From: an uncultured Candidatus Melainabacteria bacterium
GTDB lineage: Bacteria > Cyanobacteriota > Vampirovibrionia > Gastranaerophilales > Gastranaerophilaceae
Assembly (NCBI GenBank): GCA_934754775.1
Contig: CAKVIM010000009.1
Location: 1-64,000 of the forward strand
DNA length: 64,000 nt
Direction of reading: 5' to 3'
Every line of letters starts with the position of its first letter. Position 1 is the first letter of the stretch. Position numbers and translations under genes: made by a program. Positions 3,503-64,000 of this stretch are shown here, piece by piece. The notes below the pieces were generated by a model. That model ran no database searches, had not been told where the DNA came from, and saw only the letters and a program-made list of their open reading frames with translations.

Positions 3503-4891
3503 TTATTGTTTAGTTCCGACTATTCTGTAGTCAGGATTTCCGCTTACGTTCATTCTGCGTAGCTTGCCGAGAAATGGAAATTTATTATTGTCCACACACC
3601 ATTGCAGTTGTTCAACGAGCTTCTTGTTATTAGTGAAGAACTTATACTTCTGCCCATTCTCTTCTACTTGCACGACATTGCTTCTTCCCGATTTATGAAC
3701 TTTACTCTTTACATCAAATTCAACATTGAGAAAAGCGATTGGTCTTTCAACGAAGTAGCTTGCACTCATTCTTTGACCATCGAATATTCTTTTGCCTTCA
3801 TCGTCTTTATCTTCAAACGAGGGCATATCAAAATCGTCAAAACTATTCATCTTTGTGATTTTTCGCCATAGGTTAAAACCATTGCAATTCTCCAACCACC
3901 CTTTATAACTCGCCAAAGCTTGATGACGAATCATAAGATTTACAAGATTGTGAGCCTTCTTCTTAAATCGTTCCTTCATACGTTTTCTAAGCAAAGTATG
4001 ATTGAAATAGAAGCGGTCACCTACATAGTCAAGACTATACGTATGGTCGATTATCTGTACGTTGTAGCCTGTGTGCAAAGATTGATGAAGATTTTCAGCA
4101 GAATACTTTTTAATATAGTTTACTGCCTTCCATACTTCCTTTTTGCTTCTACCCAGCACAACAATATCATCACAATATATCTCAATCTTGACATCAAATT
4201 GGCTACAAACCTTACGACAAAGAATGCTGAGATAAAAGTTGGTGAGTGTTTGAATAGGATACAGCCCTATGCCAAGACCTTTCTCCTGTGCAAATATCAC
4301 TTCGTGGAGTAAATATCTTATACCCTTATTAGTAAAGAAGTCGCACAAACATTCATAAATTGCCTGCCTGTCTACATTCTCATAAAACTTCACATAATCG
4401 AGCTTACAGAAATATATTCTGCCACACGACTTGTTCTCGTCTATCCACCTCTCCGTTCTGCGCTTAGCATATATTGTTCCACGTCCTTTCATACTTGCTC
4501 CACTTTCTATGTATAGAGCTTTATTTAGGTATGGCATCAATACTTGCATCAGAGCATGATGTTCGATATGGTCAGGATAGAATGGAAGTTTGAAGAGTTT
4601 TCTTACTTTACCACAAGGGCATCTACGATAACACGAGTGTCCTTCGCTTGTGTGATAAGTTCCATCTTCGATACTCGCTTTCAAAGCAATCAAATTCTGC
4701 GTAGCCTTGCGGTCGTAGATTCTCACTCCTTTATTCTTCTCCTTCTTGCGTCTGGCTTCAAGCACGGCACGTTGCAAGTTAGCCATATCGCTAACCTGCT
4801 CCAAACGAACCTTACGGTGTTTCTTTCTTAATTTTGCTTTACGCTTGTAAGCCAATTCTGTTGTCATGATTGTCTTTCTATTGCTATTCAT
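3503..4891 (-). CDS. DGR reverse transcriptase
   Basis: 462 residues; makes cDNA from the template-repeat RNA with adenine-directed errors. Visible RT motifs: FCKLDYVKFYENV at 161-173 (catalytic Asp165), GLYPIQTLTNFY at 209-220, YCDD at 239-242 (catalytic aspartates), and LDYVGDRF at 287-294. The later SYKGWLENCNGFNL block is typical of DGR-type RTs. The N-terminus is very basic (KRKAKLRKKHRKVRL) and a Cys-rich patch lies near 87-93. About 100 residues beyond the thumb form an extra C-terminal domain. The start is ATG at 4889-4891, with a second ATG 24 bp inside. It lies downstream of target gene and TR on the same strand, the usual order target-TR-RT. Confidence 0.95.
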   Translation of the reverse strand: MNSNRKTIMTTELAYKRKAKLRKKHRKVRLEQVSDMANLQRAVLEARRKKEKNKGVRIYDRKATQNLIALKASIEDGTYHTSEGHSCYRRCPCGKVRKLFKLPFYPDHIEHHALMQVLMPYLNKALYIESGASMKGRGTIYAKRRTERWIDENKSCGRIYFCKLDYVKFYENVDRQAIYECLCDFFTNKGIRYLLHEVIFAQEKGLGIGLYPIQTLTNFYLSILCRKVCSQFDVKIEIYCDDIVVLGRSKKEVWKAVNYIKKYSAENLHQSLHTGYNVQIIDHTYSLDYVGDRFYFNHTLLRKRMKERFKKKAHNLVNLMIRHQALASYKGWLENCNGFNLWRKITKMNSFDDFDMPSFEDKDDEGKRIFDGQRMSASYFVERPIAFLNVEFDVKSKVHKSGRSNVVQVEENGQKYKFFTNNKKLVEQLQWCVDNNKFPFLGKLRRMNVSGNPDYRIVGTKQ

Positions 4892-42258: not shown

Positions 42259-43545
42259 TTAATCGTCAAAATCGAAATCAAAGGTCAACTGCAAAAACTT
42301 ATCACTATACCAGCGCTTATAGCTTTTGCCAGATATCCACCAGTCAAAGATGTTCTCCGCTATTTCGGTTTCTTGCTCCTCTGTCAAGCGGTCAGAAGAG
42401 GAGCTGTCAGAAAAAAAGTGTTCGGTAAGTTTCCATATTCCTCGATTCTGTTGTTTTGCTCTCCCAATATCCTTTTTTGGTAGCCATTGGGTTGGCGTTT
42501 GCAACCGACTCTTTGCGATGGTATACCTTGGATTTGGGCTTCCGATAATTTTGCCATCCCCAATGTTCCGGATCGGGATGATTGATATAGCCGCCTGCGT
42601 CCAAAGCAATGCTCTGACGTTTTGGAGAGGCATCCAGTCCTGCGGATGTTCCACCAGATATATTCTTTTTTGAAGAGCCCCCCCGTTTCGGATGGCTTTT
42701 ATAGCTTTTATCCAATTACGTTTAACATGAGGATATCGGGCAAGTTCTTTTTGCTTTTGTTTTACCGAAGACATAGGACAGCAGATGCAGCCAATACGTG
42801 TATATCCTTGGTCGTAAAGCTCACAATGAGCAACGCCTAACTTATTTAGGAATTCCCACACATTAGCAAAAGTCCAATGGATAATTGGTGAAATAAGAAG
42901 AGTTTCTTTGCCATACAAACATCCAAGGGTTCGCTCACCTGAAGCAGTAACTATTGACACACTTTTGCTGTTTTTGGACTTCCGCTTTTTAGAATTACGC
43001 TTTTTGCGAAATTCATCAAGTCCTTCAAGTGTGCCACTAAATTTTTGATTACTTATCTCAACTTCGTTTCTTTTAGCTCGACGACTTGATTCTGCATGGC
43101 GAATACCTATCAACGTAACCTTACCTGCACCTGCATGCTCTTTGTATTCATTGCAACACCAACGAACACGCTGTGTTGGCAATATCTGTTTCTCGACCGC
43201 ATACTGATATATACTTTTCTTCGGTTTTATAAGCTGTACATCTGGATATTGTTGCTTTACAAAACGAATGACTTCAGGAGGATCTACAGACGTTAGATTC
43301 ATGTGGGCTACAAACTTAACACCAGCAAGTTTAGCAACATGATATAAACATTGACTATCTTTGCCGCCACTAAATGCAAGAAAGTACCCCCCCGTAGCAT
43401 CATAAGATAAAGCAAGCTTTTCAGCTTTCTGCAAAAGCTGAATGCTATATAGCAACTTATTTTGCAAAGCAATGCTAAGCCGCGGAAGAAAACTCTGCAG
43501 CTTAACATCTAATTGCGAATTAATAAACTCATTATTATTATCCAT
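42259..43545 (-). CDS. PAPS-reductase-like ATP pyrophosphatase family protein
   Basis: 428 residues. The PP-loop SGGKDS at 59-64 and the Cys-rich motifs WCCNEYKE and CICCPM place it in the phosphoadenosine phosphosulfate reductase family, common on Bacteroidetes phages; in phages its substrate is unclear (sulfur or nucleotide/DNA modification are suggested). The C-terminal end (IFDWWISGKSYKRWY) is family-typical. Two 7-nt G tracts occur: one (43387-43393) just before the PP-loop, one (42678-42684) before a stretch of about 280 bp that is open in all three frames, so a pair of frameshifts cannot be excluded. Confidence 0.78.
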   Translation of the reverse strand: MDNNNEFINSQLDVKLQSFLPRLSIALQNKLLYSIQLLQKAEKLALSYDATGGYFLAFSGGKDSQCLYHVAKLAGVKFVAHMNLTSVDPPEVIRFVKQQYPDVQLIKPKKSIYQYAVEKQILPTQRVRWCCNEYKEHAGAGKVTLIGIRHAESSRRAKRNEVEISNQKFSGTLEGLDEFRKKRNSKKRKSKNSKSVSIVTASGERTLGCLYGKETLLISPIIHWTFANVWEFLNKLGVAHCELYDQGYTRIGCICCPMSSVKQKQKELARYPHVKRNWIKAIKAIRNGGALQKRIYLVEHPQDWMPLQNVRALLWTQAAISIIPIRNIGDGKIIGSPNPRYTIAKSRLQTPTQWLPKKDIGRAKQQNRGIWKLTEHFFSDSSSSDRLTEEQETEIAENIFDWWISGKSYKRWYSDKFLQLTFDFDFDD

Positions 43546-62825: not shown

Positions 62826-62906
62826 ATTAATTTAATAATTTATAATTTTATGATATTATGACTTTATAATAACATGATAACGTAAAACTATAGAAATATG
62901 TATACA

Positions 62907-63047
62907 TTAAAATAGGGACTTAAAACCTATAAAAGGTAATGCGCACAATATCAGCCAACCAAAATAATAAATTGTTACCATGGCGACTATAGCTAATATC
63001 ACTGCTGTAACAGCTACCTCTATAGATGTTGGCTTCTCATCATTCAT
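62907..63047 (-). CDS. Small membrane protein
   Basis: 46 residues from ATG at 63045-63047 (MNDEKPTSIEVAVTAVILAI); the longer frame starts with GTG. One or two transmembrane segments (VAMVTIYYFGWLILCALPFI). Function unknown. Confidence 0.5.
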   Translation of the reverse strand: MNDEKPTSIEVAVTAVILAIVAMVTIYYFGWLILCALPFIGFKSLF

Positions 63048-63094
63048 AATTCCTAATGTTATTTGAATGTTAAAATGGTTAATTTTTGTATTTA

Positions 63095-63128
63095 TTTGAC
63101 GATTATTCACCACAATCCATTATCTTTG
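63095..63128 (+). promoter_or_regulatory. Promoter-like site upstream of the Cas12a-type repeat
   Basis: TTTG (63095-63098), 22 bp, then TATCTTTG (63121-63128) on the plus strand; close to the Bacteroidetes -33/-7 pattern, though spacing is 1-3 bp longer than usual. Confidence 0.55.
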
Positions 63129-63151
63129 CAATTGTCTTCGGGAGGTTTCTA

Positions 63152-63198
63152 AATCGTACCTTTATGGAATTGATTTAATCGAACCTTTATGGAATTGA
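63152..63198 (+). repeat. Two 22-bp direct repeats
   Basis: Copies at 63152-63173 and 63177-63198 (core ACCTTTATGGAATTGA), differing at one base, 25 bp apart. Between the promoter site and the Cas12a-like repeat; possible operator or partition-site repeat. Confidence 0.8.
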
Positions 63199-63235
63199 AA
63201 GAAAATAAATCCTTCCGTTGACCGTCAATTCTTTG

Positions 63236-63271
63236 AATTGTGGATTTAAACGAATTTCTACTATCGTAGAT
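63236..63271 (+). CRISPR. Solitary type V-A (Cas12a) repeat unit
   Basis: The 3' 19 nt, AATTTCTACTATCGTAGAT (63253-63271), have the conserved Cas12a repeat core: AATTT, stem TCTAC / GTAGA with 4-nt loop TATC, final T. I extend the unit to the usual 36 nt (63236-63271); the 5' part is less diagnostic. No second copy and no cas gene in the window, so this is a solitary repeat, not an array. Confidence 0.8.
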
Positions 63272-63315
63272 GTTGCTAACGACCTTCGCTTATAGGGTGG
63301 AGAAGTCGAGCAAGT

Positions 63316-63345
63316 TAGCCCTGGCTTAGGTCGGGGCTTTTTTTA
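63316..63345 (+). terminator. Intrinsic terminator of the small RNA
   Basis: AGCCC ... GGGGCT with a run of seven T on the plus strand. Confidence 0.8.
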
Positions 63346-63618
63346 TGCCCTCCAGTAATAATGTTTTTGTATTGGTTTTCATATTCCCTTTACTCCTGCC
63401 CTGGAGATTTTTATTGCTATCTGGCACAGCTGTTTGTTAATAGGTTTCTGTATGCAAAGATATATAATATATATATTATAGCCAAATATTGAAATCTATA
63501 AAATCAGAATTTTAATATTTATTTAATGAAAATATGAAAACATGTTATCATATTTACATTAATTTACAAATAAATGAATATATGAAAGCATAGAATAATG
63601 AATAAATGAAAATAAAAA
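63346..63618. other. AT-rich gene-free stretch
   Basis: No credible gene. Contains the minus-strand promoter site at 63455-63486, an AT palindrome near 63462-63480 and ATGAAAATATGAAA-type direct repetitions. Confidence 0.55.
63455..63486 (-). promoter_or_regulatory. Host-type promoter pointing leftward
   Basis: On the minus strand TTTG (63486-63483), 20 bp, TATCTTTG (63462-63455), the consensus layout of the Bacteroides housekeeping promoter. It faces the small RNA region and would give an antisense transcript. Confidence 0.6.
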
Positions 63619-63679: not shown

Positions 63680-64000
63680 CTACTCGCTTGTGGTGATATC
63701 CTCGCCTTCGTCCGCAATAGGATCTTCGGCGGTATAGACCGAAGCTTCGCGGAATGTAGCGTCAGCAAAGAGAGATGCCGACTTCAAACGCTTGCCAACT
63801 CTTAGATGCAACTGCAAAGAGTAGATGTTTTGAGGGTGGAAGCCTGAACGGTCGTCTTTGCTGTTGTCTTTTCTCGTGTCTGAGCCTACAGAACTACAGG
63901 TAAGCGAGAATATACCCAGTCCGCCAACTTGTACCGACTTGCCTGTCAACAGCAACTCTCTGAGGCAACTCACGCAGTCGGTGATTACTGCTCGATAGGT
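63680..64000 (-). CDS. HU-like DNA-binding protein, 5' end outside the window
   Basis: The frame stays open to the window edge; 106 residues are visible. YRAVITDCVSCLRELLLTGK then SVQVGGLGIFSLTC resembles the helix-turn and beta-arm start of Bacteroidetes HU-family proteins, followed by a Ser-rich region and an acidic tail. Probably packages or bends DNA. The true start lies beyond 64000; the GTG at 63971-63973 is not the start. Confidence 0.7.
   Translation of the reverse strand, partial: TYRAVITDCVSCLRELLLTGKSVQVGGLGIFSLTCSSVGSDTRKDNSKDDRSGFHPQNIYSLQLHLRVGKRLKSASLFADATFREASVYTAEDPIADEGEDITTSE

Follow-up and report, generated by a model that had tools for sequence, protein, structure and literature searches.

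RNA anti-CRISPRs (Racrs) arise from solitary CRISPR repeat units and include RacrIC1 and RacrVA1–3 (Camara-Wilpert et al. 2023, PMC10651486). Racrs of the I-C and V-A types are inhibitory, and the tested subtypes named in the available portion of that paper are I-C, I-E, I-F and V-A, with I-B not among these. According to the same paper, the repeat search SRUFinder treats full matches lying within 100 bp of one another as arrays and discards them, and it also rejects any candidate whose match to its own 100-bp flanks exceeds 70% (PMC10651486). Host-type repeats are likewise carried on viruses in viral CRISPR mini-arrays, and the available text on these speaks of single repeat units (PMC11656645).

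The locus described here lies in a 64,000-nucleotide stretch of DNA, analysed as a whole and referred to as the window. As with a Racr, a repeat-mimicking stretch lies between genes on a mobile element, is predicted to yield a small RNA (it has a predicted promoter box and a predicted terminator), and closely matches repeats of subtypes present in the likely hosts: the two I-B copies agree with true I-B array repeats of Prevotella-genus genomes at 25/26 and 26/26 aligned bases, and the V-A core is identical to that of arrays. Unlike a Racr, which has one repeat, the unit combines four repeats of three subtypes in one RNA and has a structured guide position; it is not solitary under the SRUFinder rules, other mimics lying within 105 bases. 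Judged from the published rules, the flank rule should remove the I-B pair, and the 90% limits may likewise exclude the I-C part, which has diverged, and the V-A part, which is half a repeat; the published search would tend to filter out such modular units. The unit resembles viral mini-arrays, as far as the available text describes them (PMC11656645), in bearing host-type repeats on a virus, but differs in having neither a spacer between two like repeats, since the I-B copies abut and the V-A handle is single, nor a usable guide. Its handle parts agree almost base for base with the I-B, I-C and V-A arrays of Prevotella-genus genomes, whereas each of those arrays uses a single repeat type, recurring every ~65 bases, with many spacers, and the unit has three types and no spacers. 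No repeat mimics of several subtypes in one RNA appeared in the titles and abstracts searched, a scope that excludes preprints and most subscription papers. The best reading is an RNA anti-CRISPR of several subtypes that would work on the principle known from published Racrs.

Architecture of the unit

The unit is intergenic, between ORFs at 62907–63113 and 63680–63973, and its predicted transcript of ~211 nt (63134–63344) fuses four CRISPR-repeat mimics of three subtypes without spacers. All elements lie on the forward strand, in the order I-B, I-B, I-C, V-A handle, hairpin at the guide position and terminator. The fold of 63134–63344 (−61.9 kcal/mol, z −3.3) places the I-B pair inside an enclosing stem, followed by hairpins for I-C, Cas12a and the guide position and by the terminator. 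Upstream is a promoter-like site of the Bacteroidetes type (63095–63128), with TTTG at 63095–63098 and TATCTTTG at 63121–63128, called against what we take to be the consensus for such promoters. All 12 members examined have a TANNTTTG box upstream of the unit, and sigma-70-type sites are not commoner than in shuffles (6 found, 4.6 expected). The intrinsic terminator (63317–63344), a stem at 63317–63338 followed by a T run, is the only one in 62900–63600, where 0.3 were expected. The first-pass annotation had placed a Cas12a handle between a promoter-like site and an intrinsic terminator, and this placement holds.

The I-B mimics are enclosed by a stem whose 5′ strand (63134–63145) and 3′ strand (CCTTCCGTTGAC, 63211–63222) form a duplex that beats shuffled flanks (4/500 as good). 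Copy 1 (63148–63173) has an altered 3′ end and matches the array repeat of genome G281 at 25/26 and, ungapped, that of G001 at 25/30. Copy 2 (63175–63201), which ends in ATTGAAAG, matches the G114 array repeat at 26/26 (63175–63200) and G001 at 27/30 ungapped; in 100 simulated 64-kb windows the G114 repeat scored at most 23/30. The copies, ending at 63173 and starting at 63175, leave no spacer between like repeats.

The I-C mimic (63224–63251), comprising GTC, a hairpin and GTGGATTTAAAC, is the sole such motif in the window; the pattern of GTC, 8–20 bases and GTGGATTNAAAC occurs once there, and 1 of 100 simulations contained one. It shares its tail and layout with the I-C array repeats of Prevotella-genus genomes, and not its stem sequence. 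It is followed by the type V-A handle (63253–63271), in which AATTTCTACTATCGTAGAT is the 19-base Cas12a repeat core reported earlier in full; the core pattern has one match in the window (mean 0.00 in 100 dinucleotide shuffles), and an identical core occurs in true V-A arrays, for example at locus L041. A version of the pattern with a fixed four-base gap has no match in the window, because the gap at this site is three bases. The 5′ half of a V-A repeat is absent from the unit. The stretch before the handle had been taken for the remainder of that repeat, and is instead an I-C repeat: type I-C repeats have GTGGATTNAAAC as their tail, and TCGNACCTTTATGGAATTGAAA, further upstream, belongs to another repeat. 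The statement that there is no second repeat is correct for V-A but not for the other subtypes: a pair of I-B-like repeats and an I-C-like one lie within ~105 bases upstream. After the handle, a hairpin (63273–63313) occupies the guide position, with bases 1–6 paired at a mean probability of 0.80.

The absence of a cas gene stands as far as it was scanned: PADLOC found no Cas match among ten large proteins of the window, and only two ORFs reach 1000 aa, a tape-measure protein and a DUF5906-like protein. Rfam gave no match in the window at the gathering threshold, and phage and plasmid records yielded nothing useful for the unit region.

Recurrence and conservation of fused units

The exact 19-mer core was present at 6 viral and 36 genome loci, among which the contexts of L004, L006 and L024 resemble the window beyond the handle; at L001, L003 and L005 the 19-mer is present but the fused unit is not. 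Nine viral loci matched a pattern in which an I-B or I-C tail is linked to the V-A core, and each of them bears the unit; two of the nine, L091 and L094, are almost identical (99.9% over 2804 bp). An I-C+V-A fusion is found in 11 distinct loci, a recurrence to be read with the V-A core having been a search term for most members and the I-B and I-C tails also part of the joined pattern. Five of the 11 also have I-B (the window, L004, L006, L024 and L091), and six do not (L088, L089, L090, L092, L093 and L157). All are viral contigs or prophage-like and, as far as known, Bacteroidales. The I-B mimics match true repeats at 29/29 (L024), 28/28 (L006), 24/26 (L004, which has an altered 3′ end) and 22/26 (L091). 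Two further loci vary the combination, L016 being I-B+V-A (I-B 24/26) and L002 having V-A after an unassigned hairpin. Every member folded has a terminator-like T run. Between the fetched loci, which are fragments of phages, blastn aligned the unit and short other pieces only, the longest being 335 and 396 bp at 74% and 69%.

L157, in genome G463, was found by the covariance model at 65 bits and is not among the model's sequences. Of 349 genomes, 26 had a match to the model at E 0.01, and only G001 (in the model) and G463 exceeded 31 bits; the five weaker loci inspected comprised four ordinary arrays and one locus (L159) with neither motif. Two patterns lacking the V-A core gave one locus (L006) and six loci; L006, L091 and L094 have the core, and L095, L096 and L097, from the six, lack it and are not the unit. 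L096 and L097, with L043, look like chance matches in unrelated sequence. A promoter-plus-I-C pattern matched 15 places in 9 of 398 Prevotella-genus genomes, all of them ordinary I-C arrays and none a new unit, and the units of L024, L093 and L090 had no useful match in phage records.

Conservation is concentrated in the handles. The I-C tail GTGGATTNAAAC is fixed in 10/10 members, and the Cas12a hairpin is invariant in the nine rows of the covariation count; L091 was left out of the alignment, covariance model and covariation test (9/10 rows kept) because MAFFT misplaced it. In the I-C stem, eight cells are changed on both sides (shuffled mean 2.8) and the covariation score is 0.228 (0.092 when shuffled), neither value being reached in 500 shuffles; pairing drops from 97% to 26–47% when the partners are slid. 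The number of stem pairs with a both-sided change (3) and of pair types (4) are not above shuffles (71/500 and 406/500). The V-A loop varies (ATC, ATT, CTG, TTT). A short stem with differing letters precedes the V-A core in 7/10 members, the segment being absent in the window and L091 and L092 having no three-pair stem; this count picks the best stem for each member, so that pairing there is no test, whereas the covariation count has controls. The enclosing I-B stem beats shuffled flanks in 5/6 members (≤18/500 as good) and fails in L016 (252/500). Fixed tails and handles beside variable stems would be expected were Cas contacts maintained while other parts drift.

The guide position is more paired than the spacers of V-A arrays. 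Mean pairing probability for bases 1–6 after the handle is 0.74 in 12 members and 0.44 in 240 array spacers (one-sided Mann–Whitney p 7e-5), and for bases 1–20 it is 0.59 and 0.45 (p 4e-4); L016 is an exception at the seed (0.01). Folded alone, the guide side starts a hairpin at base 1–5 in 11/12 members. When the whole L089 RNA is folded, its minimum-energy structure disrupts the V-A hairpin. The guide-position sequence differs in each member, with no common guide, and its closure in a hairpin together with this variation argues for a dead guide.

Several related arrangements were seen outside this set. Two Mogibacterium MAGs share an identical 4.5-kb stretch (L023 3719–3777, − strand; L039 ~2610–2660, + strand) in which an I-C-like repeat with tail GTGAGTTGAAAC abuts a V-A handle, scoring 43.8 bits with the covariance model and possibly constituting an independent I-C+V-A fusion in Firmicutes. 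L095, on a viral contig, has a lone I-C repeat, GTCGCCTCATTAAATGGGGCGTGGATTGAAAC (2098–2129, −), with no V-A handle; its tail is the sole one in the 8.7-kb locus, making it a candidate single Racr. Lone V-A handles lie at L021 4696 (+), L042 6518 (+) and L038 3660–3678 (−); they comprise one in Phascolarctobacterium, a short distance ahead of a start codon, and a similar pair within a single Clostridia MAG. Near the unit, a leader just upstream of a start codon (L006 2447–2482, −; L024 2865–2900, +; L004 from 6159, +; L157 from 1898, −) is identical over 36 bases between L006 and L024, with 7–8 mismatches in L157 and L004; it was not found in the window, and is perhaps a leader of anti-defence genes.

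Carrier element and host CRISPR systems

The window is a tailed phage of gut bacteria with plasmid genes, encoding terminase, tape measure, reverse transcriptase, Rep3 and ParA, a phage-plasmid whose hosts are probably Prevotella-type bacteria. Its terminase has 404 relatives, the best 120 of which include one named Prevotella (53% identity). Its Rep3 has matches, mostly weak, in 142 of 299 Prevotella-genus genomes, the best two being 42–44% identical over ~300 residues; no relatives of ParA and Rep3 were found in viral contigs. Another protein of the window (42259–43545, −) is PAPS-reductase-like and weakly similar to BrxP and SspD, and the reverse transcriptase (3503–4891, −) is possibly that of a diversity-generating retroelement.

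Arrays of all three mimicked types occur in this group. The genome of Leyella stercorea An906 (G001, the source of L024) has the TCGNACCTTTATGGAATTGAAA motif at 129 places with ≤3 mismatches, one being the unit itself; its array repeat is GTTTTAATCGTACCTTTATGGAATTGAAAT, and one of its array contigs encodes a Cas8b. In G256, the genes cas6b, cas5b, cas3b, cas8b, cas7b, cas4b and cas1b adjoin a sister array with repeat GTCTTAATCGTACCTATATGGAATTGAAAC and identify it as type I-B. In G001, contig C143 (35500–35700; L054) has an I-B array followed directly by two I-C repeats. Prevotella-genus genomes also have true I-C arrays and Cas8c, and V-A arrays adjoining Cas12a; G463 has ordinary I-C arrays, so that the L157 unit mimics a repeat type found in its own genome. 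In samples of 200 Prevotella-genus genomes, Cas12a was above the cut-off in five (plus one fragment), Cas8c in 13, and one Cas8b model, which would miss other Cas8b forms, matched in six.

The spacer set comprised 1083 spacers from 31 loci, one of which (L013) is a spurious repeat with one spacer. Two spacers of one Leyella stercorea I-B array match the unit-bearing L006 contig (33/35 each, E 2e-10), and the L006 I-B mimic is identical over 28 bases to the repeat of that host. CCG precedes both protospacers, on the side that we take to be that of a type I PAM. G114 supplies a third spacer, which aligns to L006 across 22 bases, one of them mismatched (E 5e-5). None of the 1083 spacers convincingly matches the window (best 16 bases, E 8e-4), and no convincing self-targeting spacer was found for the L024 contig.

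Proposed function and rival explanations

By analogy with Racrs, the locus is probably a gene for a multi-subtype RNA anti-CRISPR. The evidence at the sequence level is strong: the elements themselves, their agreement with genuine array repeats, their recurrence, the variable stems beside fixed tails and the paired guide position are observed, and from them we infer transcription, processing, Cas binding and inhibition by the unit. The first-pass annotation had proposed an RNA anti-CRISPR built on a solitary V-A repeat; the RNA anti-CRISPR remains the best reading, with the handle part of the RNA, and the solitary repeat gives way to a fusion of I-B, I-B, I-C and V-A mimics. The processing proteins of these systems are Cas6b for I-B, Cas5d for I-C and Cas12a itself for V-A. 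A single short transcript would present two I-B mimics within a long stem, then the I-C mimic, then the V-A handle, with no spacers between them. In a host with one such system, the matching protein would bind, and perhaps cut, its own mimic and retain an RNA in which the next repeat, or a closed hairpin, takes the place of a guide, and Cas proteins would be titrated into complexes unable to recognise DNA. We favour, with some confidence, the fuller reading in which all three modules work and one phage RNA disables I-B, I-C and V-A, three unrelated subtypes of both classes, as a modular broad-range RNA anti-CRISPR of tandem decoy repeats in set order, its modules gained and lost as hosts change. 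Counted against the multi-subtype reading as a whole are the lack of a spacer convincingly matching the window, the V-A core as search term, the two covariation measures at shuffle level, the altered 3′ ends of I-B copy 1 and L004, L091 at 22/26, the L089 fold and the missing V-A 5′ half.

Several of these points suit another account, which we regard as unlikely, in which only one element is active against present hosts and the others are relics of earlier host systems in the same RNA. The altered I-B ends, the weaker L091 match and the six I-C+V-A members showing no I-B are consistent with it, and no genome of the 200-genome samples was in two of the Cas12a, Cas8c and Cas8b lists, so one element at a time would suffice. 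Set against this are the exact I-B copies in L024 and L006 and the joint presence of I-C tails and V-A cores in 11/11 loci, though both were search terms for most. Complete loss of function, as a degenerate array relic captured by a phage, seems highly improbable: repeats of two subtypes do meet, as the I-B array abutting I-C repeats in G001 indicates, but the unit has no spacers between its elements, its promoter box and T run accompany the members throughout, the I-C stem changes on both sides, and it recurs in loci that otherwise have only short pieces in common.

Two further explanations give the RNA a working guide. Viral mini-arrays against related viruses are known, to judge from the available text (PMC11656645), and a V-A handle with sequence after it could supply host Cas12a with a functional guide directed at a competing element. 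This alternative, raised earlier, we consider improbable: the guide position is paired, with a hairpin within five bases of the handle in 11/12 members, differs from member to member and runs into the terminator, the window has no second V-A repeat, and a search of phage and plasmid records with the region gave no significant match. Repeat-like RNAs with regulatory roles are known, and a crRNA-like RNA might guide host Cas to a promoter instead of blocking it; the available portion of the Racr paper allows other functions for some candidates (PMC10651486). The paired seed and the lack of a common guide sequence among members make this a very slight prospect. Readings as a plasmid copy-number RNA or a tracrRNA were considered and set aside.

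If the multi-subtype RNA anti-CRISPR reading is true, a single RNA with exchangeable decoys would let one phage enter hosts with different CRISPR immunity, of both classes, and surveys demanding solitary repeats would have overlooked a group of anti-CRISPRs. As the stems vary and the handles are fixed, the family shows which part of the repeat the Cas proteins likely need.
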